Assembly (NCBI GenBank): GCA_020354025.1
Contig: CP070638.1
Location: 2,187,097-2,251,096, forward strand
DNA from: Fidelibacterota bacterium
GTDB taxonomy: Bacteria; Fidelibacterota; Marinisomatia; SCGC-AAA003-L08; TS1B11
Direction: 5' to 3'
Length of the DNA stretch: 64,000 nucleotides
Each line of letters starts with the position of its first letter. Position 1 is the stretch's first letter. Both the position numbers and the translations under genes were made by a program. Of this stretch, positions 18,595 to 44,262 are shown piece after piece. The notes under the pieces were generated by a model that was not told where the DNA came from, made no database searches, and saw only the letters and a program-made list of their open reading frames with translations.

Positions 18595-21500
18595 ATGAGA
18601 AGAATAATATTTTTAATATGGGGTCTTCTCGTCCTTATGGGAGGGTGTGAAAAAAAGGTAGAGGTTGATCCCCAGGCCGCCAGGCAGATGATCACCCATA
18701 GAAATCTTGGACTGGCGTATCTGGAGGAGAATAAATTAAAAGAGGCGGCGGCGGAATTTCAAATATTGGTCGGTATTGCACCGCAGGAACCCCTTGGATA
18801 TGCTAACCTTGGCTTATCCTATTTTGTAATGGGGGAGTACGAACAGGCTGAAAAATGGCTACAGGAAGCGTTGAATCTGGAGCCGGATCATCCTGATATT
18901 GTTCTCTTGCTGGCTAAGGTGTATGAAGTAACCTATCGAGAAGACCAAGCCATCCATATCCTGGAAAACGCACTTGAAAAAAATCCTGACCATATGCGGA
19001 CTCTCTATCAGCTGGCACAATACTATTTCAACAAGCAAGATCCAAAAATCCGGAAGAAGGCGGAAGACTGTTTAACTCAGGTGGTGAATATCCTGCCCGC
19101 CAATGTGGCGGCTCGCCTCCAACTGGTAGAGTTATTAGTACAACATGGAAAGCCAGAACAGGGGCTGCAGCACATGGAAACTATCCGCCAGACTCTACCG
19201 GAATTACCGGACGGCTCGCTGGAAACATTCCAGAGAAGTCTGGAACTCATGCGTGGTGCAGATATGGAACAGGCTTTCACCCCCATCCGAATTTTTCACA
19301 ACCTATTGAAGCCGACATCCTTTTACCAGGCAGCAATCACCGAATTGAAGGGGATGAGTGGTCCGATCACCGGTCGGCCCATCCATCGCTTCAGCCATGA
19401 TATGTCGCTGAAGATCCGGGAACGAGCCGGTATACCGGACGCTCTCAACTTCACCGAAGTGACGATCGCCAGCGGATTGGAGATCATTCCCACAGACGAT
19501 GTAGCAGACTGGAGCTATGATTATCCGCAGATTATACTGGCAATTGGCGATTATGAAAGTGACGGGGACCAGGACTTTTTTATCTCCCAGTGGCGGCCGG
19601 GAGAACAGACCAGCCGGCAATATCTGTTTGTCAACGATAATGGCACCTTCTCAGACATCGCGGATCACGCCGGCATCTCACATACCGGCAGAGATCTCTT
19701 TGCTCTCTTTGCCGATTATGACAATGACGGCTACCTCGATTTGCTCGTAACCAATACTCGAGCCAACAGATTATACCATAATACCGGAGAAGGCACCTTT
19801 CGAGATGTCACCGCTGATGCTGGAATTCAGACCACCTCAAAAGGCCGAGCTGCGGTATTCGCCGACATGGATCTTGAGGGTGATCTGGATCTTTTTATCG
19901 CCAACAGTTATCAGAACCAGCTATATCGAAATAATTCGGATGGAAAATTCACAGAAATCGCGGAAGAAGTAGGTATCAGCGATGAGGATGCTATAAGTAG
20001 AGATGCCGGATTCGGGGATTTTGACGATGACGGGGATATTGACCTTATCGTTGTGAATCAAGACGCCAGTAATCGATACTACGATAATTTACGGCAGAGC
20101 TATTTCCGGGATATAACCAAAAACACCGGATTGGCAACGGATGGCGGATCCGGCGCAGTGGCGGTGGGTGATTATAATAATGATGGGTATTTGGATTTAT
20201 TTGTAACTGACCTGACCGGCGGTCAGCACTCATTATTCCGCAACCTGGGTGATGGCACTTTTGAACGGGATGCCCGTTCAGACAATGCTTTTGAAAGTAT
20301 AAAAGAAATTACCGGCCTTGATGCCGCTTTCTTTGATGCTGATAATGATGGTTTTCTGGACCTTTTAGTGGCCGGCACATCAGCGAATGCAACCCAGGAA
20401 TCTGCGGGTTTGTGGCTATTTTACAACAATGGCGAGGATATCTATCTGGATGCATCTTCGTTACTTCCTGGACTTATGGAAGCCGGTAGTCAGGTGGGAG
20501 TCGTTGATTACGATAATGATGGAGATCTGGATATCTTCCTGGTTGGTTTCTACAATGTCCACCTGCTACGTAATGACGGAGGTAATGTAAATAACTATCT
20601 AGTAGTGCGGCTGGCAGGGCTCCGCACTGGCAGCAGCAAGAATAACTATTTCGGAATCGGCGCCAAACTGGAAGTAAAAGCCGGTACTCTGTATCAGATG
20701 AGGGTAATGAGCGACCCAATTGCCCACTTCGGACTAGGGAATCGGGAAGGCGCTGATGTGGTTCGGGTGGTCTGGAGCAATGGCGTACCTCAGAATCGGT
20801 TCAATCCTGAAAGAAATCAAACGATCGTGGAAAATCAAGTCCTGAAGGGATCCTGTCCCTGGCTGTTTACCTGGAATGGAGGGGAGTACGAATTTGTAAC
20901 CGATGTACTGTGGGCCAGTGCCCTGGGCATGCCCCTAGGAATTATAGGAGAGGAAATTACCTATGCCTTTGCCAATTCGACCGATGAATATTTTAAAATT
21001 CCAGGAGAAAAACTTCAGCCGAAAAACAGAAAGTATTCCCTGCAGTTCACCAATGAGTTATGGGAGACTCCCTATGTGGATCACATGAAACTACTGGTTG
21101 TTGATCATCCGGATAGCGTGAATATTCTAATTGATGAAAAATTTACTTCCCCTCCCTTCCCACCGCTTCATATCTATGCGGTTAGCGATAAGCAGTTGCC
21201 GGTCTCAGCCCTGGATTGTCGAGGAAATGATGTTCTGAAGGAAATTAGTCATCAGGACGGAAAATACGTCTCTAATCTAATTCCCACCCGATATCAGGGA
21301 ATAATGGAATCTCACGATCTCACTCTTGATCTGGGTAATCTGTCCCAGACCGACAGCGTTTTCCTATTCTTGCATTGCTGGGTGTTCCCCACCGATGCCA
21401 GCATCAACCTTAACCTTGCCCAGTCCGGTGCAATCAATTCGGTTCCTCCCTTCGTCCAAGTTATCGATGAACAGGGGAATTGGAAAACAGTGATAGAGAA

Positions 21501-22161
21501 TATGGGTTCTCCCAAAGGGAAAAATAAGACTTTGGTAGTGGACCTGAGTGATAAATTTCTCACTGAGGACTATCGCATTCGGATACGTACTAACATGCAG
21601 ATCTACTGGGACTATATTTTTTATACTACAAGAGGAATTCACAACCTGTTCCGAAAAGTCATTCTAGAGCCGGTGGCGGCGGATCTCCATTACCGGGGAT
21701 TCTCGGAGGTAACCCGGGAAACTCCATACAGTCCTCACATTCCAGATTACCAGACCGTTACCACTGCGCCGAAATGGAGAGACTTGACCGGGTTGTATAC
21801 TAGATATGGCAATGTGTCCAGCTTGCTCTTAGAGCCGGATAGCAAATACGTGATTATGAATGCTGGAGATGAACTCACCATCGAATTCGACGCTACCCGA
21901 GTCCCTGGACTTCCATCTAGCTGGAGTAGAGACTATATATTTTACAATGATGGTTGGCTCAAGGACGGTGATCTCAATACCGCCCACGGGCAAACGGTGG
22001 AGCCATTACCATTCCACAGCATGACTGCCTATCCGTACGGCCCGGAAGAATCTTATCCCAAAGATGAAGAGCATCAGCAATTTCTGAAAAAATACCTCAC
22101 TAGAAAAGTAACGACAGAGAGCTTCCGTAAGCTGATTCGGAACCAGTCACCGGATTACTAG
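18595..22161 (+). CDS. TPR / FG-GAP / ASPIC-UnbV lipoprotein (CRTAC1-type)
   Basis: The start is placed at ATG 18595, where a lipoprotein signal begins (RRIIFLIWGLLVLMGGCEKK); the frame is open from 18472. About 1188 residues: lipid-anchored N-terminus, TPR repeats (about 20-200), then a propeller of FG-GAP/VCBS repeats with calcium loops such as DYDNDGYLDLL and DFDDDGDIDLI (about 310-680). An ASPIC/UnbV domain follows (NYLVVRLAGLRTGSSKNNYF, FGLGNREGADVVRVVWSNG), then an unrecognised 400-residue beta-rich tail. It is probably on the envelope surface, binding glycan or protein through Ca2+ loops. First gene of the plus-strand cluster; the next starts 63 bp on. Confidence 0.85.
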   Translation: MRRIIFLIWGLLVLMGGCEKKVEVDPQAARQMITHRNLGLAYLEENKLKEAAAEFQILVGIAPQEPLGYANLGLSYFVMGEYEQAEKWLQEALNLEPDHPDIVLLLAKVYEVTYREDQAIHILENALEKNPDHMRTLYQLAQYYFNKQDPKIRKKAEDCLTQVVNILPANVAARLQLVELLVQHGKPEQGLQHMETIRQTLPELPDGSLETFQRSLELMRGADMEQAFTPIRIFHNLLKPTSFYQAAITELKGMSGPITGRPIHRFSHDMSLKIRERAGIPDALNFTEVTIASGLEIIPTDDVADWSYDYPQIILAIGDYESDGDQDFFISQWRPGEQTSRQYLFVNDNGTFSDIADHAGISHTGRDLFALFADYDNDGYLDLLVTNTRANRLYHNTGEGTFRDVTADAGIQTTSKGRAAVFADMDLEGDLDLFIANSYQNQLYRNNSDGKFTEIAEEVGISDEDAISRDAGFGDFDDDGDIDLIVVNQDASNRYYDNLRQSYFRDITKNTGLATDGGSGAVAVGDYNNDGYLDLFVTDLTGGQHSLFRNLGDGTFERDARSDNAFESIKEITGLDAAFFDADNDGFLDLLVAGTSANATQESAGLWLFYNNGEDIYLDASSLLPGLMEAGSQVGVVDYDNDGDLDIFLVGFYNVHLLRNDGGNVNNYLVVRLAGLRTGSSKNNYFGIGAKLEVKAGTLYQMRVMSDPIAHFGLGNREGADVVRVVWSNGVPQNRFNPERNQTIVENQVLKGSCPWLFTWNGGEYEFVTDVLWASALGMPLGIIGEEITYAFANSTDEYFKIPGEKLQPKNRKYSLQFTNELWETPYVDHMKLLVVDHPDSVNILIDEKFTSPPFPPLHIYAVSDKQLPVSALDCRGNDVLKEISHQDGKYVSNLIPTRYQGIMESHDLTLDLGNLSQTDSVFLFLHCWVFPTDASINLNLAQSGAINSVPPFVQVIDEQGNWKTVIENMGSPKGKNKTLVVDLSDKFLTEDYRIRIRTNMQIYWDYIFYTTRGIHNLFRKVILEPVAADLHYRGFSEVTRETPYSPHIPDYQTVTTAPKWRDLTGLYTRYGNVSSLLLEPDSKYVIMNAGDELTIEFDATRVPGLPSSWSRDYIFYNDGWLKDGDLNTAHGQTVEPLPFHSMTAYPYGPEESYPKDEEHQQFLKKYLTRKVTTESFRKLIRNQSPDY

Positions 22162-22224: not shown

Positions 22225-23871
22225 ATGCGTTTTATGGGCTTCATGTTTCTTTTCCTCGTTTCAGGCACAGCTTCGGCCCAGAAGCCGTTTATCACTTTTA
22301 CAGATATTACTAACGAAGCAGGGATTGATTTTCGATACACTTTTGGGGATTACACTTACGAAAATATTCTGGAAAGCAGCGGTTCTGGAGTGACAGTCTT
22401 CGACTACGATGGAGATGGATATCTTGACCTCTACATGCTAAACGGCACATACCTTGAGGGTATCAGTGATATAGAGGGGGCAGTGTTCAAAGATACGCCG
22501 AATCGACTTTATCGTAATAATGGAAATGGAACATTTTCGGATGTGTCTGAAGCTGCAGGTGTCGATGACCGCCACTGGAGCATGGCTGCCGGCGCGATGG
22601 ACTATGACGGCGATAGTGACGTGGATATTTATCTTTTAAACTATGGGCCTAATGTATTCTACCTGAATAATGGAAACGGGACCTTTGCAGATATCACCGA
22701 TTCATTGGGATTACGTGGACCACAAACGCTGAACGGTTTTACTAAGTGGAGCGTAGGAGTTGCCTTTGGTGATTATAATTACGACGGTAGAGTGGATTTT
22801 ATGGTAGGAAACTTTTTAGCCTTTGATCCCGTTTATGTATCTCCAACAACACCGGACATAATGCCCCATCCTTCGGAATATCATGGTCAGGCCTCGATGC
22901 TCTACTACCAGGAAGCCAATGGTTGTTTTACCAACGTTACAAAAGAGTTGGGATTATACTATCCAGAGTCAAAATGCATGGGATTGACCCTGTTTGATTA
23001 CGATGATGATGGCGATCTGGACCTTTTCCAAGGGAACGATCATCAGATGAATTTTCTGTTTCGCAACGATGGCAAAGGGAATTTCCAGGAGGTGGGCATA
23101 GCAAGTGGGGTTGCGGTAAATGATCAGGGAATCCCTACCGGGTCTATGCACGGTTCAATCGGTGATGTTGATGGAGATGGTCTGATTGATTTACTGGTAG
23201 TCGACCTCCGGTATGGAGCTCTTTATCGTAATTGCGGGAATGGTATTTTTAAAGATATAACCGAGCGGAGCGGGGTCCGTGACGCATTTTCCGGAAAAGG
23301 CGCCTGGGCAGCTGCTCTTTTCGATTTCGACAACGATGGGGACTTGGATATATTCTCTGCGAACGGGATGGCAGAAGAGCTGATCTTGCAGTTTCCCCTT
23401 CTGCTTACCAATAATGGTAAAGGTCGTTTTCATAATGTAGGTCCAGACCTATGCCATTATTTTAAAGAGAAACGTTCTGGTCGTGGAGCAGCAATATGGG
23501 ACTTTGACAACGACGGGGACTTGGATATCATTGTTTCGCATATCGATTTAAAGGCCACTGCGACGCTATTAAGAAACGATGGCGGTAACCACAACCATTG
23601 GCTGGGATTGACTCTTGTGGGCAGCGGTGGACCGGCTTCCGCTATTGGAGCCAAGGTAACCGTGCAGGCAGGTGAGCACAGACAGGTGCTGGTCAACCAG
23701 TGGGCTACCAGTTATCTTTCCTATAACGATCCCCGCATGCACATCGGTCTTGGGAAGCAAAGTAAAGTGGACCGACTGGAGATTTACTGGCCAGACGGTC
23801 AAACAGAAGATTTTCAAAACCTTGATACAGACCGATACCTCACAGTAATACAGGGCGTGGGTATCCAATAG
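22225..23871 (+). CDS. CRTAC1 family protein (FG-GAP repeats + ASPIC/UnbV)
   Basis: 548 residues with a signal peptide (MRFMGFMFLFLVSGTASAQ), so exported. Seven or so FG-GAP/VCBS repeats, each with a D-x-D-x-D-G-x-x-D calcium loop (DYDGDGYLDLYMLNG, DFDNDGDLDIFSANG). The ASPIC/UnbV domain is near the C-terminus (GGNHNHWLGLTLVGSGG through HIGLGKQSKVDRLEIYWPDG). The family is common in marine FCB and planctomycete-like bacteria and is poorly characterised. It shares architecture with the 28013-29656 protein, including an extra GTYLEGIS / GAYIEGIS segment, so these two are paralogues. Confidence 0.9.
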   Translation: MRFMGFMFLFLVSGTASAQKPFITFTDITNEAGIDFRYTFGDYTYENILESSGSGVTVFDYDGDGYLDLYMLNGTYLEGISDIEGAVFKDTPNRLYRNNGNGTFSDVSEAAGVDDRHWSMAAGAMDYDGDSDVDIYLLNYGPNVFYLNNGNGTFADITDSLGLRGPQTLNGFTKWSVGVAFGDYNYDGRVDFMVGNFLAFDPVYVSPTTPDIMPHPSEYHGQASMLYYQEANGCFTNVTKELGLYYPESKCMGLTLFDYDDDGDLDLFQGNDHQMNFLFRNDGKGNFQEVGIASGVAVNDQGIPTGSMHGSIGDVDGDGLIDLLVVDLRYGALYRNCGNGIFKDITERSGVRDAFSGKGAWAAALFDFDNDGDLDIFSANGMAEELILQFPLLLTNNGKGRFHNVGPDLCHYFKEKRSGRGAAIWDFDNDGDLDIIVSHIDLKATATLLRNDGGNHNHWLGLTLVGSGGPASAIGAKVTVQAGEHRQVLVNQWATSYLSYNDPRMHIGLGKQSKVDRLEIYWPDGQTEDFQNLDTDRYLTVIQGVGIQ

Positions 23872-24218: not shown

Positions 24219-24818
24219 ATGATTCAAGATACAGGTGTAAAAGAACAGCTGATTGATGCAACACTGCTTTCGGAAGGTGAACGTGATGAACTAATACGAT
24301 TGGGGATCTTATCAGAAGAAGGTCTGATACAATCCGCACCGATACATCCCACAGAAAGGTCTATAATCCAGAAACAGGCCGTGCAAGCTCCCGAGGTATT
24401 AAATGATGCCTTCGACTACTCTCCGATACCTTCTTCATTTTCAAGGGGTCTGGCTTTTGAACTCAATGGCTACAAAATCTTGCTTATTTCCGGCACAGCA
24501 AGTGTGGATGAAAACGGTAAATCAATCCATGTTGGAGATTTTCGGGCTCAATGTTGGAGAACATACCGCAATATCACCGCGCTTCTAGAGTCAGAAGGGA
24601 TGACTTGGCAAGATGTGGTACGAACGACCTGCTACTTAAGAGATATCGAACGGGATTATAAAGATTTTAACGAAATACGTACAGCTTTCCTTAATTGGCA
24701 GCATCTCGATCCTTTGCCCGCTAGCACAGGCATACAAGCTCGTCTGTGCCGAGAGAATTTATTGGTTGAAATCGATGCCGTTGCCATTTGTCCATCAAGT
24801 TCGACGAAAGGCCGATAA
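24219..24818 (+). CDS. Rid-fold (YjgF/chorismatase-like) protein with N-terminal extension
   Basis: 199 residues, cytoplasmic. About 65 N-terminal residues are not recognised; the rest is a YjgF/Rid-type domain (LISGTASVDENGKSIHVGDF near 90-108, then RTYRNITALLESEGMTWQDV, and LLVEIDAVAI at the end). The catalytic Arg of RidA imine deaminases (PAR motif) is Ser here (PASTG, Ser169), so classical RidA activity is unlikely. The SGTASV...HVGD stretch recalls the Rid-like half of chorismatases, which cut chorismate. It lies 25 bp before a DAHP synthase gene, so a chorismate-linked role is plausible. AGGAGG precedes the ATG. Confidence 0.75.
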   Translation: MIQDTGVKEQLIDATLLSEGERDELIRLGILSEEGLIQSAPIHPTERSIIQKQAVQAPEVLNDAFDYSPIPSSFSRGLAFELNGYKILLISGTASVDENGKSIHVGDFRAQCWRTYRNITALLESEGMTWQDVVRTTCYLRDIERDYKDFNEIRTAFLNWQHLDPLPASTGIQARLCRENLLVEIDAVAICPSSSTKGR

Positions 24819-24843: not shown

Positions 24844-25740
24844 GTGAGTGGAAATAAACTGAAAGAATCCGATCAAAGCCATAACCACCTGAGCCCAAAT
24901 TCTCTCCCCTTTAAATTAGCTAGTCGAGGGATTAAGCCCGATAGCACAGTCTTAAATATTCAAGATATCCAAATCGGTGGTTCGGGAGTGGTTGTTATGG
25001 CCGGACCATGTGCAGTGGAGAGTCTGGAACAGCTGCTGACGATCGCCAAATCAGTACAAACCAGTGGAGCCAGTATCCTGCGGGGAGGAGCTTTCAAACC
25101 ACGCAAATCCCCCTACAGTTTTCAAGGACTGGAAGAGGAAGGCTTGAAATTACTCGCTCGTGTCCGTAAAGAGACCGGCATATGTATCATCACCGAAGTC
25201 ATGGATACTCGCCTGATTGAGCTGGTATGTGATCATGCGGACATCCTGCAAATTGGTTCCCGTAACATGCATAACTTTGCTCTTCTTAAAGAAGTAGGCT
25301 TAAGCAAAAAACCAGTATTATTAAAGCGCGGCATGTCCGCAACCATCGAAGAATTTCTGTTGGCTGCCGAGTATATTCTCAAACAAGGCAACCACCAGGT
25401 GATCCTATGTGAACGAGGAATCCGTACATTTGAAACTTCTACGCGGAATACGCTGGATTTGAGTGCTGTTCCAATGATAAAAAATCTCAGTCACCTTCCT
25501 GTCGTTGTGGATCCCAGCCATGGGACAGGACATTGGTGGATGGTTCCATCGCTGGCTAAAGCTGCGATCGCTGTCGGCGCGGACGGTCTGTTAGTTGAAG
25601 TGCACTCTAATCCACAGGAAGCGCTGAGTGATGGGGCTCAATCTCTTCGCCCTGATAAGTTTGATATGATGATGAAGGACTTAATAAAAGTAGCCCAGGC
25701 CGTCGGCAGGGAAATCACCCTTCAAGATCCGGTCATGTAG
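24844..25740 (+). CDS. aroF: 3-deoxy-7-phosphoheptulonate (DAHP) synthase, type I-beta
   Basis: 298 residues, starting at GTG 24844. After a 40-residue leader it is the KDO8P/DAHP-synthase (beta/alpha)8 barrel: [75 protein letters not shown]. The Cys in AGPCAVES and the His in DPSHGTG match metal ligands of this enzyme. It condenses phosphoenolpyruvate and erythrose-4-phosphate at the entrance to chorismate synthesis. The leader is not an obvious ferredoxin-like or chorismate-mutase regulatory domain, so feedback type is unclear. No other aro gene is near; its partner is the Rid-fold gene. The symbol follows common usage for this subclass. Confidence 0.88.
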
Positions 25741-25966: not shown

Positions 25967-27982
25967 GTGAACGAAAAATATATGCATTCAGTGAGAGGTA
26001 CGCGTTCCAGTATCAATACCTGGCAAGCGCGAGTGATACCAGTTTTTACTTGCGCTTCTCTTACTCTTTTCTCAATGGTGTTTATCATATCTTGTGCCCG
26101 ATCGCTACCCACCCTACCGGACCTGATCTTTGTGCAAATCCCCATCCAGGCAAAATCAGATCTTCCGGCCGAAAAACACATGTACACCCCTATCGATAGG
26201 TATGTGAATGGTACCCGGATCGTTGTTTTCCGAACATCTGCCACCGAACCGGTGAACCTCACCCCGGAATTTACCGCAGCCTGTGATCCTGATGTCTCCT
26301 TTGACGGAGAAACTATCATATTCGCCGGAAAAAAGTATCCTGATGATTCCTGGCAAATCTGGAGAATGAACACCGATGGATCTAACAAGCTACAAATTAC
26401 CCGGGGTGAAGATGACCGTATAGCGCCTATACATGCTGGAAATCGCTTCTATCTGAACGATCCCCAGCCCACACCCCAAATTATTTATGTCAGCTCAATG
26501 CATGACTGGAAAAACGAACACGGAGTAGGACCGGCTCTCTCCTTATTTGGTACTGATCCAGAAGGTAAATCCGTGCACCGTTTAACATTTAATCTCCTCA
26601 GCGATTTTTCACCCGATGTCTTGCCCAATGGCCGTATCGTCTTCACCAGTCAGCAGCACTCCGGAGATCCATACCAGCCGACCTACATATCTGCTTTAAT
26701 GGGTATTAACAACGACGGCACAGATTTGATGCTGTTCCACAGTAGTCATGAAATGCCTTTGTACAAGGACATGATCCACGTTTCTGATTTTGACGAGCGG
26801 GTTTACTTTATTGAAACTGATCGATCCACCTGGCTAGGCGGTGGTAATATTGCTTACGTTTCCCGGCGTCGACCGCTGCATACCTATCATAGACTAAGTC
26901 ATGATAAGGGACTCTTTCACAGCCCCTGTCCTCTTCCGGACGGTGGCCTGGTGGCTTCGTATCGCTCCAACTCTACGAATGTGGAGTTCGGTATTTACCG
27001 GATCAATCCCAAAAGTGGAAAACGACAAGGGAAAATATTTGAAGAAGAAGAATGGCATTCCATTGATGTTCAGGTTCTAGCACCGCACCCGAAGGTAAAA
27101 GGTCGCTCCAACTGGCTGATACCAGGCTCAACAACCGGGGTATTCTATTGCTTGAACAGCTACAGTTCAAACCTGCCTGAAGGTGAAAATATCATTCCCG
27201 GAAGCATTAAATATCTCCGGGTCATCGAGGGAGTACCACTCAAGCGGGAGTCTACCATATCTGAATATCAACAGGATCTGGCTGACACCCTGAACCTCAG
27301 GACATATTCCGGCACTGCTTTTGGCCCCCGGCGTATTCTCGGAGTGGCTCCGGTAGAAAAAGACGGATCGTTCCATATACGGGTTCCGGCAGAAACACCT
27401 CTGACCTTTCAGCTTCTGGATGATAACTATCTAGCCCTTCGTTCTCAGGAAATCTGGACCTGGGTAATAGGCAATGAAAACCGGGGATTCATCGGATTTC
27501 CAGAGAATTGGGAAATGGCACCCCCTAACAAGATGGTGGATGCGGTTATTAAACCTGCCTTTGAACTCACCCTGCCACCGGAGCAGCGTCGTATCGTCGA
27601 TTTTCATTCTCAGATTGCGCCCATTATCGAATCCAAGTGTGCTACTTGTCACGTTTCTGGGCAAACTCTGAGTCTCGAGGAGGCTAAAAATGTGAGGCCC
27701 GGTGCGGCATTCAGCCAGGCGTATATGACCCTTTTAGATCCGATTCAAGGGCGGGAGAATGAAAGGTATATCGTACCTGGGAATGCGAAGCAGAGCCCGT
27801 TGATCTGGCATCTGTTCGGTGAACAGATAGTTTCTGATAAAACGCCCTACACCATTGAGATCACGTCAATGCCTCCACGTAATGCATTAAAACCTAAGGA
27901 ACGCATCTTGTTCATAGAATGGATCGATTTGGGTGCTCAATGGGATTCCCGAGCCGCCATCGATCGGGGGCTCAATAAATAA
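25967..27982 (+). CDS. hydrazine-synthase-alpha-like propeller cytochrome lipoprotein
   Basis: About 666-671 residues (GTG 25967 or ATG 25982). A lipobox-like end (FSMVFIISC) predicts a lipid anchor. A PD40/TolB-type propeller follows (IWRMNTDGSNKLQITRGEDD, FSPDVLPNGRIVF), then a middle domain resembling the hydrazine synthase alpha family (GPRRILGVAPVEKDGSFHIR, VPAETPLTFQLLDD). A single haem-c motif, CATCH, is at about residue 558. In relatives a first CxGCH motif follows the ALRSQEIWTW region; here it reads FIGFP (508-512), so that haem is lost. This does not imply anammox: the family is widespread with unknown roles. First of seven genes spaced 1-42 bp apart. Confidence 0.78.
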   Translation: MNEKYMHSVRGTRSSINTWQARVIPVFTCASLTLFSMVFIISCARSLPTLPDLIFVQIPIQAKSDLPAEKHMYTPIDRYVNGTRIVVFRTSATEPVNLTPEFTAACDPDVSFDGETIIFAGKKYPDDSWQIWRMNTDGSNKLQITRGEDDRIAPIHAGNRFYLNDPQPTPQIIYVSSMHDWKNEHGVGPALSLFGTDPEGKSVHRLTFNLLSDFSPDVLPNGRIVFTSQQHSGDPYQPTYISALMGINNDGTDLMLFHSSHEMPLYKDMIHVSDFDERVYFIETDRSTWLGGGNIAYVSRRRPLHTYHRLSHDKGLFHSPCPLPDGGLVASYRSNSTNVEFGIYRINPKSGKRQGKIFEEEEWHSIDVQVLAPHPKVKGRSNWLIPGSTTGVFYCLNSYSSNLPEGENIIPGSIKYLRVIEGVPLKRESTISEYQQDLADTLNLRTYSGTAFGPRRILGVAPVEKDGSFHIRVPAETPLTFQLLDDNYLALRSQEIWTWVIGNENRGFIGFPENWEMAPPNKMVDAVIKPAFELTLPPEQRRIVDFHSQIAPIIESKCATCHVSGQTLSLEEAKNVRPGAAFSQAYMTLLDPIQGRENERYIVPGNAKQSPLIWHLFGEQIVSDKTPYTIEITSMPPRNALKPKERILFIEWIDLGAQWDSRAAIDRGLNK

Positions 27983-28012
27983 TGCTTAATTTAAAGAAGT
28001 TTAGGAATTCAA

Positions 28013-29656
28013 ATGTCCCATAAATGCCTATACAGCGTCATTTTATCTACTGGATTCCCAGGCTTCATTCTACTTGCATCGCTGCTTCATGCACAGCAAG
28101 ACCGCCCCAAACTGGTTGATACTACTCAAAAAGCCGGGATTGCATTTGTCCATAATTTTGGCGATGACGAAATGAGCAACCTGGTCGAATCCAATGCCGC
28201 CGGTTGTGCCTTTTTTGACTATGACGGGGACGGTGATCTGGACATCTATCTGGTCAATGGTGCTTATATTGAAGGCATCAGTCACGTCCGCGGTCGCAGA
28301 AACAGAGGCAGGCTTTCCAATGCTCTATATCGGAATAATGGCAATAGCACATTCACCGACGTGACAGCAGAAGCAGGCGTCGGCCACAAAGGCATGGGTA
28401 TGGCTGTAGTAACCGCCGACTACGACAATGATGGCGATCAGGATCTCTTTGTCAGCAATTATGGGCCTAACGTTTTTTACCGGAATAACGGCGATGGGAC
28501 GTTCACCGATATAACTATAGAGGCCGGTCTGGAAAATAACCTGTATGGAATCGGGAGTACGTTTCTAGACTACGATCAAGATGGCTTTCTGGACCTCTAC
28601 GTGGGGAACTACATCGAATATGATCCTGACTATCAATATTTCTATGCCGCAAATAGATTTCCCGGTCCACTGGCTTATCATGGACAACCCGACCTTCTTT
28701 ACCACAACAACGGCGACGGCACCTTCACCGACGTAACCCGCCAGGCGGGAGTCTACCAACCGGAAGGTAGAGCAATGGGAGTCACTTCCTGTGATCTTGA
28801 CAACGACGGCGACTGGGATATATTCGTGTCTAATGATGCTATGGAGAACTACCTTTATCGAAACAATGGTGATGGGACCTTCACCGATATTGCCCTGCAG
28901 ACAGCCACCGGTTTTGGCCAAAGCGGAGAAGCAACCTCGGCCATGAGCGGGGAATTTGGAGACATTGATCTGGATGGTTTCGTGGACATTATTGTACCTG
29001 ATTTGGCATATAGCTGTCTATACAAGAACACCGGTGCTGGCTATTTCGAAGAAATGAGCGCCCGTATGGGATTGGCTGCAGCTTGCGGGCAATACACTAG
29101 CTGGTCAGGTAACTTTTTCGACTTTGACCACGATGGTTTCGGGGATCTGTTTATCTCCAATGGGCATCCACACCGATTAATAGGGCAGGAAGATCTGTTG
29201 CTGATAAATAATTCCGGGAACGGATTTATTAACGTATCACACGAGTTGGGCGCAGACTTTCAGGATAAATTTGTCGGTCGTGGATCTGCGACCGGAGATT
29301 TCGATGATGATGGCGATATGGATTTACTGGTATTGAACCTGAATGATCGTCTTCGTCTTCTCCGAAATGATGGCGGGAACAAGAAAAACTGGATTATGAT
29401 CCACCTGATTGGTACCCAAAGCAATCGTAATGCCATCGGCAGTCGGATTCGCTTGACAACTGGGGAAAAAGTACAGACCCGCTGGCGAGTGAGCAGTTCA
29501 GGCTATCTCTCGCAGAGTGATTATCGGATCCATTTTGGACTTGGCGATTATACCCAGGTGGATCAGATCGAGGTTCTTTGGCCCTCCGGAAATGTCCAGA
29601 CGCTAAAGGATGTTGAAGCAAATCAGGTGATCACGGTCAAGGAACCAGCACGCTAA
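28013..29656 (+). CDS. CRTAC1 family protein (FG-GAP repeats + ASPIC/UnbV)
   Basis: 547 residues with a signal peptide (cut near SLLHAQ). FG-GAP/VCBS repeats carry clear calcium loops (DYDGDGDLDIYLVNG, DYDNDGDQDLFVSNYG, DFDDDGDMDLLVLN), several followed by the YRNNGDGTFTD stretch. It ends with an ASPIC/UnbV domain (NWIMIHLIGTQSNRNAIGSR, HFGLGDYTQVDQIEVLWPSG). Exported, probably surface-exposed or periplasmic. It lies 30 bp after the HZS-alpha-like gene and 11 bp before the multihaem cytochrome, so it probably belongs to the same complex. Paralogue of the 22225-23871 protein. Confidence 0.9.
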   Translation: MSHKCLYSVILSTGFPGFILLASLLHAQQDRPKLVDTTQKAGIAFVHNFGDDEMSNLVESNAAGCAFFDYDGDGDLDIYLVNGAYIEGISHVRGRRNRGRLSNALYRNNGNSTFTDVTAEAGVGHKGMGMAVVTADYDNDGDQDLFVSNYGPNVFYRNNGDGTFTDITIEAGLENNLYGIGSTFLDYDQDGFLDLYVGNYIEYDPDYQYFYAANRFPGPLAYHGQPDLLYHNNGDGTFTDVTRQAGVYQPEGRAMGVTSCDLDNDGDWDIFVSNDAMENYLYRNNGDGTFTDIALQTATGFGQSGEATSAMSGEFGDIDLDGFVDIIVPDLAYSCLYKNTGAGYFEEMSARMGLAAACGQYTSWSGNFFDFDHDGFGDLFISNGHPHRLIGQEDLLLINNSGNGFINVSHELGADFQDKFVGRGSATGDFDDDGDMDLLVLNLNDRLRLLRNDGGNKKNWIMIHLIGTQSNRNAIGSRIRLTTGEKVQTRWRVSSSGYLSQSDYRIHFGLGDYTQVDQIEVLWPSGNVQTLKDVEANQVITVKEPAR

Positions 29657-29667
29657 GAGAAATATCA

Positions 29668-32517
29668 ATGAAAAGGCAAGCAAAAACCCTACTTCTGACT
29701 GCCATTTTCACGGTGGCAGGAGGATGGATGCTATTCGGCCAGCAAGCCAAAGATCGCGTCTACGTGGGCGAGCGGGTCTGCCGTCAGTGTCACCATCTGT
29801 CCGGAAACCGTAATCAGTTCAATCCATGGCGGCTCTCTAAACACGCCTTAGCGTATGCAACGTTGTCAAAACCGGAAGCCAAAGAAATCGCGGAGCTATC
29901 CGGTATCGATGTTGACCCTCATGAAAGCCCAATATGTCTCGGGTGCCACACCACCGCTTATAATGTGGAAGCCTGGGAACGGGATGACTCCTTTCATGCT
30001 GAGGATGGAGTACAGTGTGAACTTTGCCACGGCCCTGGCAGCGAATATACTGATGCTGATATCATGCGGGACCCTGAGAAGGCAAGGCAGGCTGGCCTGC
30101 TCAAGCCCGAAGAGCGTGACTGCATGGTGTGCCATAAAGAAAAAGGCTCCCACATCGCGGTCCTGGATGTTAGAAAATTTGATTATAAGGAAGCACTTAA
30201 GGAAATCACTCATCCTGGACTCGACGGGCCACTGTATCCTGTGACTCAACCACCAGCAGGACCTCTCACTGGTCCCGAATATGTTGGTGTCCTGGCCTGT
30301 GACGAATGTCATGGCGAGGCATCGGCGGGTCGAATATACGGCAAATGGCGCACTTCCAAACACGCCCAGGCATATGCCATCCTCAGTACCGAGCGAGCAC
30401 GAGAGATTCGCAGCGAGATGGGGATATCCGGCAATCCACAAAAATCCGATAGATGCTTGGAATGCCATACCACGATAGCCGGAGAGTCTGCTGGTCGCTT
30501 CACTGAAAGTTTCGATCCGGCCCAAGGTGTGCAGTGCGAAAGCTGCCACGTCCCTAAAAGCGAAAGTGGGGCCGAAGCGGCTGTACCTGATTCAGTAACC
30601 ACTGCAGAAGCTGGCATACACGATGTAGAAAAAGAAATCTGTATCAGGTGTCATATAAAAGGCATTCACGGCCATACCTTCGATTTCGAGACTATGTGGC
30701 CTATGATCGATCATACTAAGTGGGGAGAAGAATATACCAGGTTAGAATACAAAACACCTTTCAACCTGGCGGTTACAAAGAATGGCAGGCGGTTATTTGT
30801 CGCCTGTGAAGCCTCAGGCAGCTTGATCGTGGTCAATCCGAAAACCGAAGAAATTATAACAGAGGTGGAGATCGGCACCCAGCCGCACTTCGTATACCTC
30901 TCCCCCGACGAGACCCGTGCCTATGTCAGCAACCGCGGATCGGATGACGTATCGATCATCGATACCGAAACATATCAGGTCCTTTCTACAATTACCGTCG
31001 GTGATGAACCGCACGAGATGGCGACTAACGAAGAGGGAACCATTTTATACGTGGCCAATGCAGGTACTTACGACGTATCTGTGGTAGATCTGGTAAAAGG
31101 TGCGGAAATTAAGCGACTGGCAGCTTCCAGAGGTCCTTGGGGTGTTGCCCGGTCACCCGATGGCCAGTTCATTTATGTGAGTAACAATCTACCCAGGTTT
31201 GGTGAATTCCGCACACCAGCTATGTCTGAAGTGACCGTTATCGAAACCGAGCGTTCAATAATCAAGCATCGTTATACGGTACCGGCGGCCAATTTACTTC
31301 AGGGCATTGATATCGCGCCAAACGGCGAGTTCGCTCTCGTAACCTTGATCCGTACGAAGAACCTGGTGCCAATGACCCGGAATCTTCAAGGCTGGATCAT
31401 AACCAATGGCATCGGCATCCTATGGAAGGACGGACGGATCGATCAGTTACTACTTGATGAATTGAGCGACTTCTTTGCGGACCCCACAGATATCGTCTTC
31501 TCAAAAAATGGCCGGTATGCCTTTGTCAGTGGCGGCGGTGTTCAGGAAATTGCGATGATCGATATTAAGAAGATGAAACAGATTCTTGAGAATGCCCCTG
31601 AAATCCAACGCGAGGAAGTACTGCCCAATCATTTAGGCATAAGCATGGAGTATATTCTGACCCGGATCCCGGTGGGACAAAGCCCGCGAGGAATGGCTGT
31701 TTCTCCGGATAATAGATACCTGTACGTCGCAGATGCATTAGATGATGCCATTTCAGTTATTGATATTAAAAAGCGGAAACGGATCAAGGTCATCGACCTG
31801 GGTGGCCCCAAAGAAATAACCCAGGCCCGCTACGGTGAACGAATTTTTCACAGTGCACAGTATACGTTTGAAAGGCAATTCTCCTGCCATTCTTGCCATC
31901 CGGATGGCCACATTGACGGACTAGTTTACGACATCGAACCGGATGGTCTAGGTATCAATCCGGTCGATAATCGGACTCTCCGAGGTATCAATGATACGGC
32001 TCCTTTCAAATGGAAAGGAACCAACCCTACTTTGAAACGGCAGTGCGGTCCAAGACTAGCCGCGTTTTTCACGCGAATTGATCCCTTTATTCCCGAACAA
32101 TCAGCCGCATTAGATCGCTACATAATCACGATTACACGGCCTCCGAATCGCTACCGGACCGGGAATGAACTCACCCCCGCTCAACGACGGGGCAAACGTA
32201 TCTTCGAGCGAATGTACGACAATTCCGGCAACCTCATACCCCTGACTAACCGATGCAACCACTGTCATGCACCGCCCTATTACACCAATCGAGAAGTCTT
32301 CGATGTAGGGACAAATTCGTGGCTGGATACCCATAGCGGATTCGACGTTCCTCATCTTAACAATATCTACGCTTCGCCGCCTTATCTTCACGATGGACGG
32401 GCACAGTCCCTGGATGAAATATGGACGGTCTACAATCCAGACGACACTCATGGCCTCACGAACGATTTAACCAAAGATCAGCTTAATGATCTTATCGAAT
32501 ATTTAAAAACATTATAG
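29668..32517 (+). CDS. ten-haem fusion cytochrome: two tetrahaem modules, YVTN propeller, MauG-like end
   Basis: 949 residues with a signal peptide (cut near LFGQQ). Ten CxxCH motifs: four at about residues 38-156 (CRQCH, CLGCH, CELCH, CMVCH), four at 211-329 (CDECH, CLECH, CESCH, CIRCH) and two near 737 and 861 (CHSCH, CNHCH). The first two sets are an internal duplication of a cytochrome c554-like module, each starting YVG and containing SKHA.AYA. Residues about 365-700 form a YVTN/lactonase-like propeller; the last 220 resemble a dihaem peroxidase/MauG domain. It is a periplasmic or surface electron-transfer protein. Its stop is one base before the next ATG. Confidence 0.9.
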   Translation: MKRQAKTLLLTAIFTVAGGWMLFGQQAKDRVYVGERVCRQCHHLSGNRNQFNPWRLSKHALAYATLSKPEAKEIAELSGIDVDPHESPICLGCHTTAYNVEAWERDDSFHAEDGVQCELCHGPGSEYTDADIMRDPEKARQAGLLKPEERDCMVCHKEKGSHIAVLDVRKFDYKEALKEITHPGLDGPLYPVTQPPAGPLTGPEYVGVLACDECHGEASAGRIYGKWRTSKHAQAYAILSTERAREIRSEMGISGNPQKSDRCLECHTTIAGESAGRFTESFDPAQGVQCESCHVPKSESGAEAAVPDSVTTAEAGIHDVEKEICIRCHIKGIHGHTFDFETMWPMIDHTKWGEEYTRLEYKTPFNLAVTKNGRRLFVACEASGSLIVVNPKTEEIITEVEIGTQPHFVYLSPDETRAYVSNRGSDDVSIIDTETYQVLSTITVGDEPHEMATNEEGTILYVANAGTYDVSVVDLVKGAEIKRLAASRGPWGVARSPDGQFIYVSNNLPRFGEFRTPAMSEVTVIETERSIIKHRYTVPAANLLQGIDIAPNGEFALVTLIRTKNLVPMTRNLQGWIITNGIGILWKDGRIDQLLLDELSDFFADPTDIVFSKNGRYAFVSGGGVQEIAMIDIKKMKQILENAPEIQREEVLPNHLGISMEYILTRIPVGQSPRGMAVSPDNRYLYVADALDDAISVIDIKKRKRIKVIDLGGPKEITQARYGERIFHSAQYTFERQFSCHSCHPDGHIDGLVYDIEPDGLGINPVDNRTLRGINDTAPFKWKGTNPTLKRQCGPRLAAFFTRIDPFIPEQSAALDRYIITITRPPNRYRTGNELTPAQRRGKRIFERMYDNSGNLIPLTNRCNHCHAPPYYTNREVFDVGTNSWLDTHSGFDVPHLNNIYASPPYLHDGRAQSLDEIWTVYNPDDTHGLTNDLTKDQLNDLIEYLKTL

Positions 32518-32518
32518 C

Positions 32519-33697
32519 ATGCACCGTATTTTTCTTATCCTTGCAGTAGCTACATCCCTGGCACCAAAAGGCTTGTGTCAGTCAGGTCCCACTATCACCC
32601 TGGCCGGTGAACCCTACGTCTACAAAGAATGGGAGTCATTTACAGAAGAATCCACTCACGGCGGGCTGATTAACGATCACATCTTCTTCCTGGAAGCAGA
32701 TGGAGATAGTCTCTGGATCGGCACCGAAGGCGGATTGGTGCTATACGAGAATGGCAAGTGGAAAAGCTGGACTGAAGAAGATGGCCTCCCTTGGAAGGTG
32801 GTAATGGGCTTGGCAAAAGATCCGAGAACTGGAGAGCTCTGGTTGGCGTTATTCGGGGAAGGGATTGCCCGTTTCAGCGGAGGCCACTTTGAACACTTCA
32901 CCCAGATGAACAGCGGCCTGTTAAACGATGTGGTGTACGGCGTGGATATCCAGGGGGATAACGTGTGGGTGGCCACCACTGCGGGCATTAGTCGGTATAA
33001 TCAGGTAACCGGTGAATGGGCCGTATTCAATGAGAAACATGCGCCAATGGAAGAAGTGTGGACCTACAACGTTGATGCTGCAGAAGACAGAGTCTATTTT
33101 GCGGTCTGGGGAGGTGGTATCCTGGAATGGGATGTAAAGACCCAGGTCTGGACCGATTATGTCGATCCTGACGGCGAGATGGAGATCGATCTCTATCGGG
33201 ACGATGGATTGGTGCATGTGATCACCACATCGGCCTCTTACATTGACAACGTGTTGTGGGCCGGTACATATTTCGGATTAAGCCGCTACGATAGACGCAA
33301 CTGGCGTGGATATATGGATATCGACAGCGGCCTCCCGAGCAATTTTATTAATCTTGCTGTTGGACGCAATGGTACCTCCTGCTATAGTTGCACTGATAAA
33401 GGACTGGGAGTGCTGGTCGATTTCGAAACCGATACCTGGGTTACTTATAAGCAGGATACTGAAGACGCTGAAACCTGGACCGCCCATGTAATGGTAGGGA
33501 ACCAGGAAATAAAGACCATGTCTACCAATCTGGATTTGCCGAATCATTTTACCATCTGTGTGGAATTCATGGGAGATGATGTATGGATCGGCACCGGTCA
33601 TGGACTGGCCAGGGGAATCGGCAATGGATATTATGATGGACTACGTGGCAAAGGTTCTTCTGCTGGTAGTTTTAAAGGTCCAACTAACCCTAAGTAG
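32519..33697 (+). CDS. secreted two-component-regulator-type propeller protein
   Basis: 392 residues with a signal peptide (HRIFLILAVATSLAPKGLCQ). The body is beta-propeller repeats of the Reg_prop kind, with blade motifs DSLWIGTEGGLVLYENGKW, NVWVATTAGISRYN, NVLWAGTYFGLSRYD and DVWIGTGHGLARG. Such propellers usually form the periplasmic sensor of hybrid histidine kinases, but here no membrane helix or kinase follows, so it is a free binding or sensor protein. It is directly coupled to the ten-haem cytochrome (1-bp gap). Two Cys lie close together (TSCYSCTDKG), which is not a haem motif. Confidence 0.82.
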   Translation: MHRIFLILAVATSLAPKGLCQSGPTITLAGEPYVYKEWESFTEESTHGGLINDHIFFLEADGDSLWIGTEGGLVLYENGKWKSWTEEDGLPWKVVMGLAKDPRTGELWLALFGEGIARFSGGHFEHFTQMNSGLLNDVVYGVDIQGDNVWVATTAGISRYNQVTGEWAVFNEKHAPMEEVWTYNVDAAEDRVYFAVWGGGILEWDVKTQVWTDYVDPDGEMEIDLYRDDGLVHVITTSASYIDNVLWAGTYFGLSRYDRRNWRGYMDIDSGLPSNFINLAVGRNGTSCYSCTDKGLGVLVDFETDTWVTYKQDTEDAETWTAHVMVGNQEIKTMSTNLDLPNHFTICVEFMGDDVWIGTGHGLARGIGNGYYDGLRGKGSSAGSFKGPTNPK

Positions 33698-33739
33698 ATT
33701 TTCCACTTACTGAGCACATTCAGGGAAAAAAATAGAACG

Positions 33740-35146
33740 ATGAGACGATCAAGTATTCTTCTGGTAGTAACTGTCATCGGATTCGCCCTTCCTTTTACTA
33801 CGGATATATCTGCCCAAACCACTGCATTCGCTTCAAAGGCGGAATCTGATACAGTAAAGTACGGGAAAACGCCCTGGGAGTATGAACCTTATAACCGCTT
33901 TGAAAAACCGTACAACCGATTCTTTTTGGACACTTTGGAATATCCCGGATACGGCCGTCATATTCCCGAACCGGAATACGTCGATAGTGTCAAAATAGGT
34001 TTTATCGGCCCTATTATCGGTCCCATCCCCGGATTGCCTGGAAGCCTGAAAACTCTAGAATTAAAAGTGAACCAACGTGTGATCAGATGGGACGGATACC
34101 CGGTGTCCCATTTAGCTCCCATTGGAACCAAGATGCTGCAAGGAACGCAACTTGCCGTGGAACAGGCTAATGCGAGGGGCGGCTATCGAGGTAAGATTCC
34201 CTACAGCCTGATCGTGAGGAACGATAACGGCAACTGGCGGTCTTCCGGAAGGGAGACTATTATGCTGGCGTATAAAGACAGCGTCTGGGCTATCCTTGGA
34301 ACTGTGGACGGCGCCAACAGCCATATTGCCATCCGTGCGGCACTTAAAGCTGAAATCCCGGTTATGAACACCGCTGACACCGATCCTACATTTGTTGAAA
34401 CCCGCATTCCCTGGGTGTTCCGCTGTATTACTGATGACCGCCAGATGTGTTACCTGCTGGCGGATTTCGCCTTTAAGAAATTAGGGCTCAAACGCATCGC
34501 CGCGTTGCGTGCCGTCAACCGCTATGGTCGCATGAGCATCGATGAGTTTCGGGATGCGGCCACCCGACTTGGACACCCGTTCATGGCTGAACTCCAATAT
34601 GAAGAGGGCGATACCGATTTCAGCCGCCAGCTGAGAAGGATTCAGTCGCTGAATGCGGATGGCGTGATCACCTATGGCAATGCCAAAGAGTCCGCATTGG
34701 TCCTCAAACAAATGCGTAGTATGGGGATGAATCAATGGTTCTTCGGCAGCGACCGCATGGTCACTAAGGAATTCCTTGATATCGTCGGGAAGAATCATGG
34801 GAATGTAGCAGCCGGGTATCCCTATGACCCTACCCGAAAAGATCCGGAATATCTGCAATTTATCAAGGACTTTCGGAATCGGTTTGGTGAAGAGCCGGAG
34901 ACCTATGCCGCGCATGCCTATGACGGCATGAATATGATTATTGAGGCCATCGAAAAGGCGGGCTTAAATCGAGCACTCATCCGAGATCAACTGGCAGCGA
35001 TGTCCAATTATGAAGGTGTAACCGGGAGGATAGAACTAGATGCAGTCTTCAGTGATAGAAGCCCCGCTTTTTTGGCAATTTTAAAAGACAGCAAACTGGA
35101 ATTCTATACCCAGGATGAAATTTTTTCGGATAAAATTGAATTTTAA
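33740..35146 (+). CDS. Leu/Ile/Val-type ABC substrate-binding protein (orphan)
   Basis: 468 residues: signal peptide (cut near TDISAQ), then an unusual aromatic/proline-rich linker (about 40-90, including YNRFEKPYNRFF). A type I periplasmic binding fold of the amino-acid (LivJ) family follows: KIGFIGPIIGPIPG, GTQLAVEQANARGGYRG, YDGMNMIIEAIEKAG. No permease or ATPase gene is near, so it probably does not serve a normal importer. It lies 42 bp after the propeller gene and 18 bp before a second binding protein of the same family. Confidence 0.85.
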   Translation: MRRSSILLVVTVIGFALPFTTDISAQTTAFASKAESDTVKYGKTPWEYEPYNRFEKPYNRFFLDTLEYPGYGRHIPEPEYVDSVKIGFIGPIIGPIPGLPGSLKTLELKVNQRVIRWDGYPVSHLAPIGTKMLQGTQLAVEQANARGGYRGKIPYSLIVRNDNGNWRSSGRETIMLAYKDSVWAILGTVDGANSHIAIRAALKAEIPVMNTADTDPTFVETRIPWVFRCITDDRQMCYLLADFAFKKLGLKRIAALRAVNRYGRMSIDEFRDAATRLGHPFMAELQYEEGDTDFSRQLRRIQSLNADGVITYGNAKESALVLKQMRSMGMNQWFFGSDRMVTKEFLDIVGKNHGNVAAGYPYDPTRKDPEYLQFIKDFRNRFGEEPETYAAHAYDGMNMIIEAIEKAGLNRALIRDQLAAMSNYEGVTGRIELDAVFSDRSPAFLAILKDSKLEFYTQDEIFSDKIEF

Positions 35147-35164
35147 ACCTGCACACCCTCAAAT

Positions 35165-36376
35165 ATGAAATCCTCCCGCTTGCTCTGGATTCTATGGTCC
35201 ATTTTCTTCTGTACCACTCAGCTACAAAGTCAAATAGAAGCCTCTCCTGAAACCGGCCAACCTGATAAGCCCCCAGGTGTTTTAGATACGCCAGTTGATT
35301 TTTCTGGACGGAGAGGGACCATCATATATCCTAGACAACTCGACGCAATTCGTATCGGCTTTTTCGCGCCGGATGAACCGGATGGCCTGGTTGGTGATCC
35401 CATGCTCAAAGCCGCCTCGTTGGCGGCAGCAGAAGCCAATGCCGCCGGAGGACTCCAGGGGATTCCCTACAGGTTGGTTAAGCGCTGGGCATATGATCCC
35501 TGGGGATCGGGTTCCAAAGAAATGATCCGGCTGATCTATCAAGACAGTGTATGGGCAGTGATCGGATCTCTAGATGGTGGTGCTACCCACATCGCGGAGC
35601 AGATTGTAACCAAGGCGTGGGTACCCCTCCTCTCACCTGTCTCAGCTGATCCATCGCTTACATATATCCGCATTCCATGGATGTTCCGACTGCCACCCAA
35701 TGATCAAGAACAAGCAGAGATCATTGTACTAAAATGCATTCAGGCATTATCTCTGGATAAAGTTGGTCTTATTACCTCCACCGACCATGACGGCCGCATC
35801 TTTGCCCTGGAAATACTCACCAAAATGAAGGCTGAACAAATCCCGCCGTTCTTTCATTTTCAACTATCACTGCCCATTGTCGACTTTAATGATATCGTCC
35901 AACGAGCGGCATCATTCTATCCTGAGGGAATCATAACGCGCCTGCCACCGGCTGAAACTCTTGATTTACTGGACCATTTTCAGAGTAATAAACTTCATCT
36001 CCCCGTATTAATTCCATGGATTCCCGGTTTGCGGGCTGAAGACTTGACAAAACGATACGAGGGCGACATCTACTATGTGCAACCGTTTTCAGAAACGGGA
36101 AGTTTGGCCTACGCCGAATTCGCCCGAACTTATCGGGAGCGGTATGGTACGAGCCCTACTCCGAGTGCCGCTTATACCTATGATGCCGTTAATTTGCTGA
36201 TCCAGTCACTACGAGAAAGCGGCTTAAGCCGGACTGGGCTGCGAGATGCTATCGCCGGCATCGGCGAATTTCAAGGTGTAACGGGGAAGATTTCTTGGGA
36301 TAACGGCGGCGGCAATCAGGCAGAACCCATTCTTCGAACTCTATCTGGAGAAGAATCATCAGTTACTAACCGTTGA
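35165..36376 (+). CDS. second Leu/Ile/Val-type substrate-binding protein
   Basis: 403 residues with a signal peptide (cut near LQSQIEA). It has the same fold and order as its upstream neighbour: IRIGFFAPDEPDGLVGD, AAAEANAAGGLQGIPYRLV, QDSVWAVIGSLDGGATHIAE (the neighbour has KDSVWAILGTVDGANSHIAI), AYTYDAVNLLIQSLRESG. The two are tandem paralogues but quite diverged, so they may bind different ligands or pair as a heterodimer. Last gene of the tight plus-strand run; the next gene is 66 bp on and unrelated. Confidence 0.85.
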   Translation: MKSSRLLWILWSIFFCTTQLQSQIEASPETGQPDKPPGVLDTPVDFSGRRGTIIYPRQLDAIRIGFFAPDEPDGLVGDPMLKAASLAAAEANAAGGLQGIPYRLVKRWAYDPWGSGSKEMIRLIYQDSVWAVIGSLDGGATHIAEQIVTKAWVPLLSPVSADPSLTYIRIPWMFRLPPNDQEQAEIIVLKCIQALSLDKVGLITSTDHDGRIFALEILTKMKAEQIPPFFHFQLSLPIVDFNDIVQRAASFYPEGIITRLPPAETLDLLDHFQSNKLHLPVLIPWIPGLRAEDLTKRYEGDIYYVQPFSETGSLAYAEFARTYRERYGTSPTPSAAYTYDAVNLLIQSLRESGLSRTGLRDAIAGIGEFQGVTGKISWDNGGGNQAEPILRTLSGEESSVTNR

Positions 36377-42253: not shown

Positions 42254-42351
42254 AACAGTCTTTCTTCAGTCGATCTTTCCAGGCACTACAAGAGTGGCGA
42301 CAATCTAGCCATTGCGATACTCGGAGACCAAGCGCGGGGTGTGTCATGGGA

Positions 42352-44151: not shown

Positions 44152-44262
44152 TTAGATTTCGTTGCTTTTCAGAAGCTAACTGCTTGAGTTTCGTTCCGCA
44201 AGATGAGATCTCGCTCCCTCTGAATTCAGGGTCGCACCTACGTTTCGGTTTCCAGCCATACA

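Follow-up and report, generated by a model that had tools for sequence, protein, structure and literature searches.

A six-gene envelope module related to hydrazine synthase, with a lost haem alphaI motif, in a Fidelibacterota genome

What does a set of genes related to all three subunits of hydrazine synthase (HZS), an enzyme that to our knowledge was long believed to have no relatives, do in a member of the Fidelibacterota? The set is located in a 64,000-nucleotide stretch of a Fidelibacterota genome (assembly GCA_020354025.1, contig CP070638.1, positions 2,187,097 to 2,251,096; hereafter the window), where six open reading frames (ORFs), all on the plus strand and all intact, occupy positions 25967-36376. 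It is on balance probable that they encode an envelope redox enzyme complex that follows the architecture of hydrazine synthase while its chemistry differs, that it was horizontally acquired, and that in this organism it works without haem alphaI. The successive intergenic gaps are 30, 11, 1, 42, and 18 nt, exactly as given, for a one-strand run, by an earlier sequence-only reading of this DNA; that reading counted seven genes, and five gaps imply six. The plus-strand gene at 36443 (Gfo/Idh/MocA, with a twin-arginine-like start) was rejected as a seventh member, since its position is beyond the stated range and it is not conserved together with the module.

The first gene (25967..27982) encodes a 671-amino-acid (aa) homologue of HZS-alpha, with a propeller, a middle domain, and a C-terminal haem domain. 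This protein, which is single-copy in the genome according to Pfam, matches the NCBIfam model hydrazine_alpha (2.8e-66) and the PDB chain 5c2v_A (1.1e-47), and its predicted model fits the latter with a template-modelling (TM) score of 0.73 by query length. The third gene (29668..32517) encodes a fusion of 949 aa in which two c554-type tetrahaem repeats precede HZS-beta and HZS-gamma parts. The octahaem part (29752..30663), with eight CxxCH motifs, matches Cytochrome_C554 in two stretches (1.4e-32); the HZS-beta-like part (30739..31767) is a seven-bladed propeller matching 5c2v_B (1.7e-37; model TM 0.89 by target length); and the HZS-gamma-like di-haem domain (31780..32514) matches 5c2v_C (8.8e-21 by single sequence, 2e-29 with the family profile) and holds invariant residues described below. 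Relatives of all three HZS subunits are therefore present in the window. The ten-haem fusion had been recognized before, and its ten CxxCH motifs are indeed all intact, but its HZS-beta and HZS-gamma parts had been overlooked. Elsewhere in the genome, a separate c554-like cytochrome (G000:C1:1976441-1976998, locus L002) shares 38% identity with tetrahaem repeat one of the fusion.

Between these two genes lies a CRTAC1-type FG-GAP/ASPIC-UnbV propeller identified by Pfam (28013..29656; 547 aa). The fusion is followed by a 392-aa Reg_prop propeller (32519..33697; Pfam, profile match to 4a2l at 3.3e-42) and by two Peripla_BP_6 binding proteins, PBP1 (33740..35146; HAAT type, Pfam 4.2e-46, profile match to 4gnr at 3.4e-40) and PBP2 (35165..36376; Pfam 9.1e-28, profile match to 4gnr at 5.4e-36). 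Pfam recovers the HZS-alpha-like, CRTAC1, Reg_prop, and two binding-protein families that had already been assigned from the sequence alone. The proposal that the Reg_prop protein is a sensor finds no support, as it consists of the propeller alone, with neither a kinase nor a Y_Y_Y domain after it. Amino-acid binding proteins score best among the PDB matches of both PBP1 and PBP2, a result that is not decisive for the ligand class. No LivH/LivM permeases or ATPases are encoded in the cluster and no adjacent LivH/LivM-type pair was detected in the genome, where the two PF02653 matches over the cut-off lie about 480 kb apart. Judged by eye, the N-termini of the module proteins resemble Sec signal peptides, with a lipobox-like IISC in alpha, in agreement with the export claimed earlier.

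One scan of a genome collection yielded 79 loci. The order alpha, CRTAC1, eight-haem-beta-gamma fusion, Reg_prop, PBP1, PBP2 recurs in at least six phyla, and the titles of the carriers name Planctomycetota, Acidobacteriota, Verrucomicrobiota, Omnitrophota, Calditrichota, Gemmatimonadota, and Marinimicrobia/Fidelibacterota; the carriers are mostly metagenome-assembled genomes (MAGs), and some of the MAG titles from which these phyla were taken may be wrong. One such case is locus L091 (DYJN01000003.1), titled Arcobacter sp., whose module is Acidobacteriota-like in the tree, so that the bin or the label is probably wrong. Where the flanks are long enough to judge, alpha is found upstream of the fusion in 48 of 49 loci and CRTAC1 in 45 of 49, while Reg_prop (47/49), PBP1 (47/49), and PBP2 (41/49) lie downstream. 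The genes often overlap, with median gaps of -4, -4, 17, 6, and -43 nt, the last being affected by over-extended ORF starts. The pairwise divergence of the six proteins is correlated (r 0.69-0.94), and none of 300 label permutations reached any observed value. It is strongly supported by these comparisons that the six genes form a single co-inherited periplasmic redox unit, as had been suggested before order in distant genomes, the check then proposed, was found to be conserved in dozens of them.

Clustering of the neighbours revealed no further conserved genes around the six other than copies of CRTAC1 or TPR-CRTAC1 and a RidA-like gene, and no outer-membrane porin appears among the conserved neighbours. 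A cluster of minus-strand ORFs from 25 loci was discarded as an antisense shadow, since they lie opposite core genes. Planctomycete loci have genes with no relation to the module in front of it (GH38, GH127, DUF2961). The fusions of L078 and L096 (Opitutaceae) and of L072 and L097 (Acidobacteria) show six CxxCH motifs, a tetrahaem repeat having apparently been lost or miscalled, and the six-haem protein reported from O. terrae agrees with them.

The distribution of the module is patchy. The fusion or a shorter form of it occurs in 3 of 171 searched genomes of the window's class, from three different families, and is absent from all ten searched genomes of the same genus or family; in planctomycetes, the full ten-haem form occurs in 3 of 392 genomes, one of them the seed. 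Close relatives lack the entire module, rather than carrying it among differing neighbours, as the sequence-only reading would have expected if the genes did not belong together. In the beta-gamma tree, the window sequence falls within a ten-haem clade of 73 rows (SH-aLRT 100), its neighbours being MAGs labelled Deferribacteres, Calditrichota, and Gemmatimonadota, and the anammox sequences stand apart on a long branch of their own. Given this distribution and placement, the simplest reading is that the module has spread horizontally and was acquired in this way by the window genome.

A similar arrangement has recently been described by Hagglund et al. (December 2025; PMC12758564). Their clade I of HZS homologues comprises alpha, CRTAC1, a beta-gamma protein with eight extra haems, and two binding proteins; it was found in a handful of named species, keeps Cys165, and lacks HZS residues, and it was concluded not to be HZS. 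The window module, which had been thought to match no known pathway, belongs to this published class: alpha is upstream, CRTAC1 lies between, beta and gamma are fused, the two binding proteins are downstream, and the eight extra c554-type haems, the Cys165 equivalent, and a Trp at the gammaHis144 position are all present. In contrast to clade I, it has no haem alphaI. Since all the other clade I features are found, the window module is read as a variant relative of clade I rather than as a typical member. Its host phylum, Marinimicrobia/Fidelibacterota, is not among the taxa named in the main text of that study, in which neither "regulator" nor "RidA" occurs and Reg_prop, chorismatase-like, and DAHP synthase (DAHPS) genes are not mentioned.

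More distant counterparts have also been reported. Suarez et al. 2023 (PMC10732223) described HzsABC-like genes of Phycisphaerae UBA1845 and KSB1 and proposed a wider family of HZS-like enzymes. These genes share with the window a fused BC-like gene outside known anammox bacteria, but there hzsA immediately precedes the fusion, whereas here CRTAC1 intervenes and the fusion has ten haems. Planctomycete loci of clade II/III type (L106-L116 and L141-L143; also L095) resemble the window in having CRTAC1, Reg_prop, RidA-like, and binding proteins and sometimes DAHPS, and differ in that beta-gamma has one extra haem, alpha has no alphaII domain, and CRTAC1 precedes alpha. Within this set, L141, L142, and L143 are clade-III-like, with CRTAC1, a short alpha, and a three-haem beta-gamma, together with Reg_prop, RidA-like, and binding proteins and sometimes DAHPS.

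In HZS, NO is reduced at gammaI and the product is joined to ammonia at alphaI (PMC12607021). For the comparison of these sites, HZS gamma numbering was moved to 5c2v_C by matching residue types, with an offset of 39 that agrees with the Cys102/Cys105/His106/Cys165 assignments in PMC12758564. Across 25 diverse sequences, the gamma part has a mean column identity of 79%. Cys793 is invariant in them and aligns with gammaCys165; as in HZS, it probably provides a third cysteine attachment for the gammaI haem. For gammaII, the CxxCH motif at 863-867 is accompanied by an invariant His928, aligned to the distal ligand His332. Trp782, also invariant in the 25 sequences, stands at the gammaHis144 position, an assignment taken from PMC12758564, and the position aligned to gammaAsp168 is not an Asp. 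Variation is almost absent from the segment that aligns with the tunnel loop of HZS-beta (TKNLVPMTR..QGW). In alpha, the proximal Tyr591 is absent throughout the clade: relatives show CIGCHEDxEL at the alphaI site, and anammox proteins CSGCHxGSY. The position aligned to the catalytic Glu of bCCP (1iqc) is occupied, in this alignment, by Phe or Thr in the module family.

The gene content of the window organism was tested family by family. Taking PF13447 at E <= 1e-30 as the threshold for presence, HAO/HDH proteins occur in five of five anammox genomes, in 1 of 34 carriers, and not at all in the window genome. No haem-copper oxidase is present in the window genome either, which suggests an anaerobe. 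NrfA is encoded there; it was rejected as an obligatory partner, because full-length matches occur in about 13 of the 34 carriers. With HZS residues missing, Phe/Thr at the bCCP Glu position, and HAO/HDH lacking, hydrazine synthesis is a poor fit, and so is ordinary peroxidase chemistry.

The feature peculiar to the window among the alpha homologues recovered is the loss of the alphaI motif. The site (27488..27502) reads FIGFP in place of CIGCH (RGFIGFPENWE, compared with RGCIGCHEDPE in L018), while the CxxCH is kept in all other recovered homologues covering it (82 loci, some few of which come from overlapping fetches of a single genome), including those of anammox bacteria and other clades. 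Earlier recognition of this protein as an HZS-alpha homologue holds, but it retains one haem motif and not two, the intact one being the CATCH of haem alphaII (27638..27652). At alphaII, planctomycete members have a CxxCH like that of the window, whereas the nearest relatives show CxxxxCH (CAIAGCH). The change to FIGFP involves several in-frame nucleotide differences over five codons, a pattern that would be unusual for an assembly error of the indel type. Between the window and L018, alpha has a dN of 0.17 and a dS of about 1.1; its dN to the outgroup L027 is 0.416, against 0.396 for L018; and dN/dS is about 0.06-0.2 for every module gene. This low dN/dS and small rate excess indicate that the alpha gene is not decaying. 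With alphaI lost, gamma would be the sole site able to act in the window protein set.

The genes preceding the module, all on the plus strand, had been suspected to belong to it, and this is borne out in the nearest relatives for the RidA-like, DAHPS, CRTAC1, and TPR-CRTAC1 genes. A 1229-aa protein with TPR and FG-GAP/ASPIC-UnbV domains according to Pfam (18472..22161) is a probable accessory in the window's clade; L020 and L024 have homologues of it next to the module, and L095 has a fragment. It is followed by an accessory CRTAC1-type FG-GAP/ASPIC-UnbV propeller (22225..23871; 548 aa, Pfam), homologues of which adjoin the module in L018, L021, L024, and L095. Next come a cytoplasmic accessory protein of the RidA/chorismatase superfamily (24219..24818; 199 aa), assigned by Pfam, NCBIfam, PDB alignments, a motif, and neighbour conservation, and a DAHPS (24844..25740; NCBIfam NF006421/TIGR01361), the enzyme of the first shikimate step. 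This DAHPS is an extra copy, 54% identical to the second one in the genome (G000:C1:13370). In the closest relatives, L018 (= G096), L021, and L022, the RidA-like gene and then DAHPS precede alpha as in the window. Linkage of DAHPS to the module is seen in three or more separate groups.

Omnitrophota and several Acidobacteria have longer versions of the RidA-like gene (375-447 aa), and these forms match FkbO/Hyg5 chorismatases over most of their length (TIGR04444, E 1e-14 to 8e-19; PDB 5ag3, 3.2e-10). The shorter forms, the window protein included, retain the CRxxLLxE motif of Hyg5. The 24219 gene and its relatives score 32-68 bits with TIGR04444, below its cut-off of 325; they are related to FkbO/Hyg5 chorismatase, and a chorismatase function is putative. 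A reading as RidA deaminase has been weakened, since in the window protein Ser replaces the Arg that aligned RidA proteins carry at the RidA catalytic position. Where a non-planctomycete clade-I locus extends far enough upstream, it usually includes a chorismatase-superfamily gene (22 of 29), and such a gene reappears in the planctomycete clade-III-like loci. Where present, the linked chorismatase-like and DAHPS genes suggest a ligand or cofactor derived from chorismate, which is no more than a reasonable guess.

According to these data, a working scheme can be put forward for the proposed envelope complex. Electrons from periplasmic c-type carriers would be taken up by the fusion at its eight c554-type haems, flow on to the bis-His haem gammaII, and from there cross Trp782 to reach haem gammaI, where a small substrate would be reduced (oxidation being less likely). 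In most relatives, an intermediate would then reach haem alphaI past the loop of the beta-propeller. The two orphan binding proteins may deliver or bind an organic ligand, substrate capture by them being plausible, and the CRTAC1 and Reg_prop propellers may serve as structural or docking subunits. In the window, either the gamma half-reaction alone would be needed or alpha would now act as a scaffold. Several points weigh against this scheme: the gamma part of the predicted fusion model is of low confidence; the second step through a tunnel would be carried over by analogy from HZS; the loss of alphaI could mean decay; a literature search found no biochemistry on any module member; and the chorismatase-superfamily gene is present in just 1 of 19 planctomycete clade-I loci, so that a ligand derived from chorismate may apply to part of the family.

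That the module is a genuine hydrazine synthase and the organism anammox-like can hardly be entertained. All three subunits are strongly matched and all three folds of anammox HzsABC (5c2v) are present, together with the gammaI third cysteine, the gammaII His332, and the alphaII motif. However, the Tyr591-ligated alphaI is missing from the window and Tyr591 from the whole clade; gammaHis144 is a Trp and Asp168 is lost, according to the alignments and PMC12758564. The fusion carries eight extra haems, the gene order is reversed relative to anammox and extra core genes are included, and the scores are far under the NCBIfam equivalog cut-offs (224 against 800 for alpha, 208 against 1250 for beta-gamma). 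The HAO/HDH-type octahaem protein common to the anammox genomes is rare among carriers and missing here. It is also quite unlikely that gamma acts on H2O2 as a di-haem peroxidase or MauG-type enzyme, either for peroxide detoxification or for the modification of a partner protein encoded in the operon. Gamma does belong to the bCCP/MauG superfamily and has its two-haem fold and the invariant CCP/MauG tryptophan, but the catalytic Glu is not aligned, an HZS-type third haem cysteine is present, the domain is fused to a propeller and an octahaem part, and the host appears to be an anaerobe.

Another reading, rather unlikely, is extracellular electron transfer, in which the octahaem part would exchange electrons with an aromatic, chorismate-derived shuttle bound to the two binding proteins, and the HZS-like parts would be a structural and haem scaffold. 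The ten haems, the several exported propellers, the orphan binding proteins, and the linked DAHPS and chorismatase-like genes would suit it; the extreme conservation of the gamma active site suggests catalysis instead, a porin is not among the conserved neighbours, and the chorismatase link is not universal. The window copy could finally be a functionless, decaying horizontal acquisition, which is very unlikely: the alphaI motif is lost, close relatives lack the module, and the module has a lower G+C (0.455-0.494) than is found further downstream in the window (0.50-0.54), but the reading frames are intact, the ten CxxCH motifs of the fusion and alphaII are kept, and dN/dS and the relative rate of alpha speak against it. 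A bolder extension of the redox complex favoured here seems improbable: a widespread, horizontally mobile envelope system in which the two-site HZS architecture performs chemistry other than that of anammox on a small molecule, either derived from chorismate or containing nitrogen, that dedicated orphan binding proteins would supply. The window would hold a natural single-site version of it that works without haem alphaI and separates the half-reactions.

Two other loci of the window deserve mention. A signalling enzyme with GAF-GAF-PAS-adenylate/guanylate cyclase domains is encoded just upstream of the module (14366-16636, minus strand). A second cluster of exported propellers (41006-47127, minus strand) contains a CRTAC1-type FG-GAP/ASPIC-UnbV protein (42352-44151) between large TPR proteins (41006 and 45832).

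To the text of PMC12758564, the present analysis adds a near-invariant Reg_prop protein to the core, the linkage to chorismatase-like and DAHPS genes, an accessory set shared with clade-III-like planctomycete loci, many more carriers, their correlated divergence and sporadic horizontal distribution, the general lack of HAO/HDH in them, and the variant without alphaI. The Reg_prop protein with the two binding proteins, the chorismatase/DAHPS link, and the natural alphaI-less member offer handles for finding the substrate. When hzsA-like or hzsBC-like genes turn up in a metagenome, they should not be taken to show that anammox occurs there. The module is the most complete non-anammox counterpart of HZS found, and it may hold the chemistry from which hydrazine synthase arose.

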